A stretch of 36,735 nucleotides of DNA from Meiothermus sp. (GTDB taxonomy: Bacteria; Deinococcota; Deinococci; Deinococcales; Thermaceae), in assembly GCF_025056915.1 (NCBI RefSeq), contig NZ_JANWVH010000022.1, positions 1-36,735 of the forward strand, in the 5' to 3' direction. Made by a program: the position numbers and the translations under genes. The notes below the pieces were generated by a model, which searched no databases, was not told where the DNA came from, and was given only the letters and a program-made list of their open reading frames with translations. This document shows positions 499-2,763 of this stretch, in pieces (positions within the stretch are counted from its first letter, which is position 1; the number at the start of each line of letters is the position of its first letter).

Positions 499-2492
<1,994 letters not shown>

Positions 2493-2514
2493 GGGGGTCT
2501 CCTGAGGGGGGTCT

Positions 2515-2590
2515 ATCGTGTATGGTCGATGGTCTATCGACTATGGACTATTGACTATGAACGATCGCGTTGGACTATGGACTAATGGGT
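2515..2590. repeat. Reiterated 'actatgga' words in the trpB leader
   Basis: The spacer between the leader terminator and trpB consists of imperfect repeats of ~10 bp built on gactatgg / gactattg / ggtctatcg, for example tatcgactatggactattg followed by ggactatggactaa. It is not coding. It lies inside the trpB mRNA leader. Similar but unrelated word repeats occur in other spacers of this window. Confidence 0.65.
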
Positions 2591-2600
2591 CGCCCTAACA

Positions 2601-2628
2601 GACAAAAACTCGAGGCCCTCGCCTCGAG
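2601..2628 (-). terminator. Intrinsic terminator in the trpB leader (attenuator)
   Basis: On the minus strand a perfect 8-bp GC-rich stem, CTCGAGGC / GCCTCGAG with a 4-nt loop (2609-2628), is followed directly by TTTTTGTC. It lies ~38 nt downstream of the leader-peptide stop codon and ~110 nt upstream of trpB. This is a classic Rho-independent terminator placed where an attenuator would be expected. Confidence 0.82.
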
Positions 2629-2631
2629 ATA

Positions 2632-2690
2632 AGCCCCGGCACAGGCTTTGAAACTGTGCCCAGGGCTAGCTGCGCCACCAGCGCTGGTGG
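2632..2690 (-). promoter_or_regulatory. Attenuator stem-loops upstream of the terminator
   Basis: Two structures precede the terminator. First, the 16-bp palindrome CCACCAGCGCTGGTGG (2675-2690) is formed by the leader codons for His-His-Gln-Arg-Trp-Trp, so the tandem Trp codons sit in its 3' arm. Second, AGCCC-GGCACAG / CTGTGCC-GGGCT (2632-2667) starts on the leader stop codon. A ribosome stalled at the Trp codons would melt the first and leave the second free; a ribosome at the stop codon would cover the 5' arm of the second. How the second stem excludes the terminator (3 nt apart) is not evident by eye. Confidence 0.6.
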
Positions 2691-2725
2691 TGCCATTTGT
2701 AGCTGCGGGGGGTACGAATCCGCAT
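2666..2725 (-). CDS. trpL: Tryptophan operon leader peptide
   Basis: A 19-codon ORF, MRIRTPRSYKWHHQRWWRS, ending in TAG at 2666-2668. Three of 19 residues are Trp (codons 11, 16 and 17), with a tandem pair near the end, as in ribosome-mediated trp attenuators. It begins 9 nt after a near-consensus -10 box, lacks any Shine-Dalgarno, and is followed by stem-loops and a U-tailed terminator before trpB. The inferred role is regulatory: uncharged tRNA-Trp stalls the ribosome at codons 16-17 and allows transcription into trpBA. The start is chosen because no other ATG in frame fits between the promoter and the Trp codons. The Arg/His richness is probably a by-product of the palindrome in the RNA. 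Ribosome-mediated trp attenuation is known in other bacteria; assigning it here is inference from sequence. Confidence 0.85.
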   Translation of the reverse strand: MRIRTPRSYKWHHQRWWRS

Positions 2726-2734
2726 GTTGCTCAA

Positions 2735-2763
2735 AGGGTAGCAAGCCCTGCTGCTTCCGTCAA
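2735..2763 (-). promoter_or_regulatory. Promoter of trpL-trpBA
   Basis: Minus strand TTGACG (2758-2763), 17-nt spacer, TACCCT (2735-2740). The leader ATG begins 9 nt after the -10 box, so transcription probably starts at or within a few bases of the ATG. The same hexamers and spacing occur upstream of the ABC-F gene at 8309-8337. Confidence 0.8.

Follow-up and report, generated by a model that had tools for sequence, protein, structure and literature searches.

A conserved leader peptide with tryptophan codons, on a predicted leaderless mRNA, ahead of trpBA in Meiothermus and related Deinococcota

Background

The leader peptides of attenuators are usually viewed as disposable, with selection acting on their control codons only. 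The enteric trpL has a Shine-Dalgarno start and an antiterminator, and its peptide is otherwise free. Leaderless leader peptides are known from Streptomyces lividans, namely trpL1 (MFAHSTRNWWWTAHPAAH) before trpE, trpL2 before trpS, leuL1, and leuL2 (PMC8079986). Similarly, leaderless cysteine-rich upstream ORFs of mycobacteria were proposed to attenuate downstream genes by cysteine supply (PMC4633059), and attenuation by such ORFs was later said to be shown (Canestrari 2020, as cited in PMC9031893 and PMC13236596). The tryptophan-related leader peptide TnaC of Escherichia coli is described with a rut site and with conserved residues Trp12 and Asp16 (PMC8429421). As to the phylum considered here, leader genes of Deinococcus-Thermus are included in a bulk statistical treatment (PMC4833913), and PMC11596967 mentions small ORFs of Deinococcus deserti that are leaderless. 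A search of the open-access literature, peptide words included, returned no description of the RTPR[SA][FY]K..HQRW peptide that is the subject of this study. The novelty of this peptide family is therefore considered provisional. Leaderless attenuator peptides as such are already known in Actinobacteria.

Results and discussion

The trpBA leader of Meiothermus sp.

The window, i.e., the whole stretch of 36,735 nt of Meiothermus sp. DNA that was analysed, carries on its minus strand trpB (1278..2492), named by its PALP domain, its trpA neighbour, and its relatives, and, directly behind it, trpA (499..1281). Ahead of trpB and on the same strand, a -35 element TTGACG (2758..2763) is followed after 17 nt by a -10 element TACCCT (2735..2740), which lies 9 nt ahead of the leader ATG. 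The nine bases between this element and the ATG (TTGAGCAAC; 2734-2726) lead into an ORF of 19 codons plus stop (MRIRTPRSYKWHHQRWWRS; 2666..2725, ATG at 2725), which is predicted to be leaderless or nearly so. The peptide encoded, M R I R T P R S Y K W H H Q R W W R S, has Trp at codons 11, 16, and 17 and comprises a conserved core (RTPRSYKWHHQRW; 2678..2716, core codons 1-13). Within the ORF lies hairpin A (CCACCA GCGC TGGTGG; 2675..2690, minus strand), with the tandem Trp codons as part of its 3' arm. Hairpin B (2632..2667, minus strand) begins inside the leader stop codon, and an intrinsic terminator T (2604..2628, minus strand) consists of eight perfect pairs (stem 2628-2609), followed by TTTTT. 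The original prediction, which saw an attenuator at this place, had described promoter, ORF, palindrome, second stem-loop, terminator, and trpB in this order, and all of them are there, exactly as described. Upstream of the leader promoter, a divergent gene for an M29 metalloprotease is located.

A simple sigma-70 scan of the window listed no promoter, because TACCCT agrees with TATAAT at only three of six positions. The leader fold had a z value of -2.93, with one of 200 shuffles being equally stable, and one terminator-like site was found versus 0.4 expected. The Rfam 15 covariance models gave no match in the window at the gathering score, and none at E up to 1 in seven loci. Between the terminator and trpB, a heptamer tandem repeat (TATGGAC and variants; window 2513-2584) is present, which is longer in locus L004; one further similar heptamer array (up to two mismatches) occurs in the genome to which the window belongs.

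Spread of the leader in the phylum

A TrpB search matched 108 of the 111 phylum genomes, distant paralogues included, and the DNA upstream of trpB was read in 99 genomes, at one locus each. No member of the large genus Deinococcus was recognised among these 111 genomes. An intact relative of the leader was found ahead of trpB in 80 of the 99 loci, 76 of them by script and three (L029, L046, and L070) by eye; the remaining one, L075, has its leader about 960 nt upstream of trpB, past an EamA gene. By group, intact leaders were present in 16/17 Meiothermus loci, 4/4 loci of two neighbour genera, 20/27 Thermus-type loci, 11/11 loci of family f4, 29/31 loci of family f5 (Trueperaceae), and 0/9 others; locus L001 was excluded, being the same DNA as L002. 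Judging from their sequences, the 27 Thermus-type loci would belong to the genus Thermus. Three of them (L053, L054, and L056) carried frame-shifted leaders, and the loci L020 and L089 were cut by contig ends. No such leader was found in 14 of the 99 loci (L023, L025, L027, L028, L032, L035, L036, L037, L039, L042, L051, L088, L096, and L098), in which trpB is presumably made without this peptide. L039, L088, and L096, which lack the ORF, have a -10-like box directly before the trpB start itself.

A profile of 28 leader peptides, run against the 111 genomes at E <= 0.001, matched 82 places in 81 genomes, which lay upstream of trpB except for two near contig ends (G041 C78 and G072 C322). Exact matches to [FY]KWHHQRW in genome contigs were found 17 times, 16 of them in Deinococcota. 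The 17th match, in Fusibacter, was rejected as a member from outside the phylum, since it was out of frame and in an unrelated ORF, and a search of 299 genomes of the phylum of Fusibacter at E <= 0.001, run without a positive control, gave no match. As the pattern catches only the KWHHQRW variant, it leaves room for members in other phyla. No NCBIfam family and no PDB relative were found for the leader peptide, and the search of Pfam gave one chance-level match only (1/21 members, E 0.11).

In one Trueperaceae genome, a gene coding for an EamA-family transporter is located between the leader and trpB (L108:6554-7444), so that the transcript still opens with the leader. In L089 as well, trpB is preceded by the end of a similar EamA-type ORF. 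The EamA product is perhaps an aromatic amino acid or indole transporter under the same leader.

Promoter geometry and start of the transcript

A TANNNT box occurred 4-11 nt before the leader start in 76/76 script-found loci, versus 8/347 other ATGs in the same stretches, the leader starts having been chosen with a preference for such a box and that of L063 having been set to an internal GTG. A -35 element with at least four of six matches was present for 65/76 leaders, versus 167/1520 random positions. In 45 loci, 6 nt separated the -10 box from the start; the gap was 5 or 7 nt in a further 10 loci and 8-10 nt in the other 21. A gap of 6 nt makes the A of the AUG the predicted first base of the RNA; the 9-nt gap in the window therefore predicts about three untranslated bases. 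Words resembling a Shine-Dalgarno sequence were found in 14/76 leaders. The comparison across loci thus supports the prediction of a leader mRNA that would begin at the AUG or within a few bases of it, and the transcript start at or near the leader AUG that was originally proposed is also what the geometry of the -10 and -35 elements predicts.

Conservation of the peptide

The common core of the leaders can be written as R-T-P-R-[SA]-[FY]-K-x-x-H-Q-R-W. Its conservation was scored on the 76 script-found loci, with identical cores counted once; since the finding of an ORF required RTP, codons 4-7 were also scored alone. For the 50 distinct non-Thermus cores, the pN/pS ratio was 0.30 over codons 1-13 (0.36 without RTP), 0.19 over codons 1-7, 0.38 over codons 8-13, and 0.28 over codons 4-7 alone. 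The pS in the cores was about 0.6, i.e., synonymous positions had diverged far and amino acids were held. Read in the two shifted sense frames, the same core DNA gave pN/pS ratios of 2.38 and 1.17. The three antisense frames gave 1.61 (stops in 0/50 cores), 2.03 (25/50), and 0.43 (33/50); the last value, its many stops notwithstanding, counts against an action of the peptide as a nascent chain (see below). In family f4, the ratio was 0.14 over codons 1-7 versus 0.93 over codons 8-13, which hold the Trp codons. In Meiothermus, codons 1-7, which lie outside hairpin A, had a ratio of 0.04. These figures show that the peptide is conserved at the amino acid level beyond its Trp codons.

Three residues from Met to RTP were counted in 16/16 Meiothermus and 18/19 Thermus leaders, and seven in 23/27 Trueperaceae leaders; this number was three, five, or seven in family f4 and four or six in the two neighbour genera. 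The distance between the core Trp and the stop ranged from 0 to 16 codons across the leaders, the stop standing two codons past the last core Trp in 9/16 Meiothermus leaders. With a constant distance from Met to RTP and a variable one from Trp to stop, the site of action would seem to be the Trp codon instead of the stop.

At least one Trp was present in all 57 non-Thermus leaders of the script set, and exactly one in 10/27 Trueperaceae and 9/10 f4 leaders. Hence, the Trp leader before trpBA noted originally in a single stretch of DNA is kept in relatives. The core Trp was absent in four f4 leaders of the script set. In the f4 loci L034, L045, L046, L047, and L066, the leader ends in KWAFHHG, with the core Trp lost and only an earlier Trp left; these leaders represent a natural variant for asking which Trp codon matters.

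The Thermus-type loci

Seven of the 19 Thermus-type leaders had no Trp codon at all, so that the conservation of Trp codons expected among relatives held outside Thermus and failed in part within it. The Thermus-type leader peptide was still constrained (pN/pS 0.26), and that it is kept although these seven leaders lack Trp is a further point against a nascent-chain action. A TAGGAT box stood about 50 nt before trpB in 26/27 Thermus-type loci, versus 1/72 others, and we read it as a second promoter that may by-pass the leader in Thermus. The Thermus-type leader itself seems to be decaying, to judge from its lost Trp codons and its frame shifts. In several of these loci (e.g., L041, L053, and L056), a GGCGC..GCGCC hairpin and a T run follow the TAGGAT box and adjoin the trpB ribosome site.

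RNA structure between the leader and trpB

Coexistence of hairpins A, B, and T was predicted in 13 Meiothermus sequences, among which four pairs of hairpin B had changes on both sides. The six inner pairs of hairpin A and seven of the eight pairs of T were invariant and therefore uninformative on pairing. As an element common to all groups, hairpin A was rejected: by a measure that misses hairpins with larger loops, such as that of L026, the stem anchored at core codon 13 had at most five pairs in 14/27 Trueperaceae leaders, 0-1 pairs in 9/10 f4 leaders, and one pair in 19/19 Thermus leaders. A G+C-rich terminator between the leader and trpB was present in 14/16 loci of Meiothermus, 1/4 of the neighbour genera, and 4/19 of Thermus; the same criterion found none for the 10 f4 and the 27 Trueperaceae leaders.

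The influence of ribosome position on the trpB terminator was modelled for 16 loci with a manually assigned terminator. This set excluded L017 and L019, which have no clear terminator, as well as L005 and L014, which are near-copies of L004 and L013, respectively. In a static folding free of kinetics and pseudoknots, the bases covered by a ribosome, placed either on a Trp codon or on the stop codon, were kept unpaired. At 60°C, placing a ribosome on a Trp codon lowered the probability of the terminator by at least 0.5 in 0/16 loci, the largest fall being 0.38 (L022). In L018, the terminator was weak when free, and a ribosome at most Trp codons increased its probability instead of reducing it. 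For the 5' arm of the terminator, an upstream partner scored against shuffles gave p values of 0.20 or more in 15/16 loci and a borderline p value of 0.05 in L022. Under static folding, the Meiothermus terminator is thus predicted to form at every ribosome position. Since trpB follows the end of the U-run after only 10 nt in L012 and 15 nt in L010, a second promoter between terminator and trpB is not general in Meiothermus. Read-through of the leader stop codon, by which the ribosome would be carried across the terminator, was considered and rejected: frame 0 was open in 14/14 Meiothermus loci, but the other frames were open in 10 and 12 of them.

In the spacer between the leader and trpB, C exceeded G in 27/27 Trueperaceae loci, versus 16/27 in a control stretch upstream of the promoter. 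The corresponding numbers were 7/10 for family f4 (control 6/10), 11/16 for Meiothermus (control 14/16), and 0/19 for Thermus. The C-rich spacer of Trueperaceae would be compatible with termination by Rho but is no proof of it; an excess of C over G alone is no sign of Rho, and many spacers are shorter than 70 nt.

The trpE leader as an internal control

The trpE gene was present in 17/18 genomes of the genus Meiothermus. It was not found in the assembly of the window itself, a 94% complete draft, which probably reflects an assembly gap. A separate Trp leader, ending in [GW]WWP(G), was located before trpE in 12/12 loci read (L118-L129; e.g., MVRTAQVKGWWWPG). Control of trpBA only had been held to be unusual. 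The leader does stand before trpBA, but this placement is less odd because trpE has a Trp leader of its own in all loci read. The box before the trpE leader was looser, namely [TC]ANNNT, 8-11 nt before the chosen start in 11/12 loci, and its leaderlessness is therefore less sure.

Over the nine codons ahead of the Trp codons in 11 paired Meiothermus genomes, the trpE leader had a pN/pS ratio of 0.79 and an identity of 0.41, versus 0.09 and 0.94 for the trpB leader, the trpE stretch of L118 including two codons before the ATG. At 60°C, the probability of the trpE terminator fell by 0.5 or more at the first Trp codons relative to the stop in 10/12 loci, a count that was 8/12 with the starts picked first and became 10/12 after shorter shared ATGs had been taken for L120, L125, and L129. 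The two exceptions have only two Trp codons each. At 37°C, such a fall was obtained in 5/12 loci. As the trpE terminator switches and that of trpBA does not, the folding method sees a classical attenuator at trpE only. The two leaders of Meiothermus share Trp codons, a terminator, and a -10-like box shortly before the ATG, but in the trpE leader the peptide drifts and the terminator is predicted to respond to the position of the ribosome, unlike in the trpBA leader.

An enteric-type attenuation of trpBA, which the original prediction had put forward, is accordingly not supported by this modelling. The 3' arm of hairpin A includes the tandem Trp codons, and hairpins A, B, and T are predicted to form together. 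No clear antiterminator partner emerged, the terminator probability fell by at least 0.5 in none of the trpBA loci versus most of the trpE loci, and the peptide is under selection beyond its Trp codons.

Proposed mechanism and alternatives

The leader may encode a leaderless, cis-acting regulatory peptide, the nascent chain of which would adjust how long the ribosome pauses at the core Trp codon and thereby control termination before trpBA; this reading is preferred here, and it could equally well prove right or wrong. The mRNA from which the leader is translated would begin with the leader AUG or immediately beside it. When the ribosome has to read the core Trp codon (codon 16 in the window), RTPR[SA][FY]K, about 6-12 residues further back in the chain, would occupy the upper part of the exit tunnel, and from there the nascent chain would set the time that the ribosome waits at this codon. 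Scarce charged tRNA-Trp would prolong the wait, and the parked ribosome would let transcription run on into trpBA. When Trp is plentiful, the ribosome would finish and leave, and transcription would not reach trpB. In Meiothermus it would end at the intrinsic terminator, and in Trueperaceae, for which no such terminator was found, perhaps by the action of Rho on the C-rich spacer. An action of the nascent chain at the core Trp codon is suggested by the fixed distance from Met to Trp, the free position of the stop, and the selection on the residues 6-12 positions behind. The pause, the response to Trp and the sign of that response, the Rho step, and the output are what we infer here. Several points weigh against this reading. 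The Meiothermus terminator must be passed for trpBA to be transcribed from the leader promoter, yet it is predicted to remain formed at every position of the ribosome. Selection on the peptide also fits an action in trans. The f4 leaders devoid of the core Trp, the differing distances from Met to RTP in f4 and the neighbour genera, the spacing of two codons between the last core Trp and the stop in 9/16 Meiothermus leaders, and the 14 loci in which no such leader was found count against it as well. A wider proposal, to be held tentatively and with some doubt, is that RTPR[SA][FY]K..HQRW represents a family of nascent-chain regulators over much of the phylum, with ribosomes that would start directly at the 5' end of a leaderless mRNA and wait at a Trp codon, a lineage-specific output (intrinsic terminator, Rho, or other), and an ordinary trpE attenuator alongside.

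Alternatively, the locus may be a classical ribosome-mediated attenuator, in which stalling at the Trp codons would favour an antiterminator and the peptide would be kept for side reasons, e.g., an overlapping RNA structure. The right order of Trp codons, terminator, and trpBA, the compensating changes in hairpin B, and what seems to be the same device at trpE of the same genus agree with it. It is nevertheless unlikely, given that static folding found no antiterminator, that the f4 and Trueperaceae leaders are devoid of the terminator on which it would act, and that the strongly constrained codons 1-7 of Meiothermus lie outside hairpin A. The terminator-free, C-rich spacers of Trueperaceae would be compatible with an arrest peptide of the TnaC type, whose finished chain would bind free tryptophan in the tunnel, block termination at the stop codon, and so regulate the access of Rho. 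Conserved residues before a Trp fit such a peptide too, as does a stop directly after the core Trp in 8/27 Trueperaceae and 5/10 f4 leaders. However, with the stop at variable distance past the core Trp, the arrest point would not be fixed, and TnaC raises expression in the presence of Trp, a sign that befits a catabolic operon rather than trpBA; this explanation is very improbable. Selection at the amino acid level, also in Thermus-type leaders devoid of Trp codons, is what a small protein acting in trans would display, for instance on TrpBA, tRNA, or the ribosome, and encoded by the gene that opens the trpBA transcript; a leader peptide of Sinorhizobium, peTrpL, does work in trans (PMC7298713). 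Such a role is nonetheless quite improbable for a single-copy leader that is nearly always beside trpB, has Trp throughout the non-Thermus set, and belongs to no Pfam or NCBIfam family and has no PDB relative.

If the reading as a nascent chain acting at the core Trp codon is true, two principles of Trp sensing would exist side by side in the same genomes. Should the peptide act on the ribosome that makes it, it would be a naturally occurring pause or arrest peptide that operates on leaderless mRNAs. Thermophile ribosomes are favoured for structural work, and with its thermophile host the peptide would be directly accessible to toeprinting and cryo-EM.

Comparison with known systems

The leader peptides of S. 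lividans share with the trpBA leader a short ORF that contains codons for the amino acid under control, a leaderless start (predicted in the case of trpBA), and, in some cases, the lack of a U-rich terminator, but they belong to another phylum, have another peptide, and precede trpE and trpS instead of trpBA; the text of PMC8079986, as far as consulted, reports no conservation of the peptide. The mycobacterial ORFs are also short, leaderless (as predicted for the trpBA leader), and tied to the supply of the amino acid encoded (PMC4633059), but they concern cysteine and other genes and possess a cluster of control codons instead of an RTPR core. TnaC (PMC8429421) resembles the trpBA leader as a short peptide with conserved tunnel residues and a tie to tryptophan, but it arrests at the stop codon and serves a catabolic operon, whereas the trpBA leader is fixed in its distance from Met to Trp. 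Conserved residues at a fixed distance from the stop, as expected for the TnaC type, were not found among the trpBA leaders. Finally, the enteric trpL and the trpBA leader have in common Trp codons that are followed by a terminator and then by trp genes. The latter leader differs by its leaderless geometry, by the lack of an antiterminator in the foldings made, and by a conserved peptide. A single genus thus harbours two trp leaders, of which that of trpE looks disposable and that of trpBA does not.
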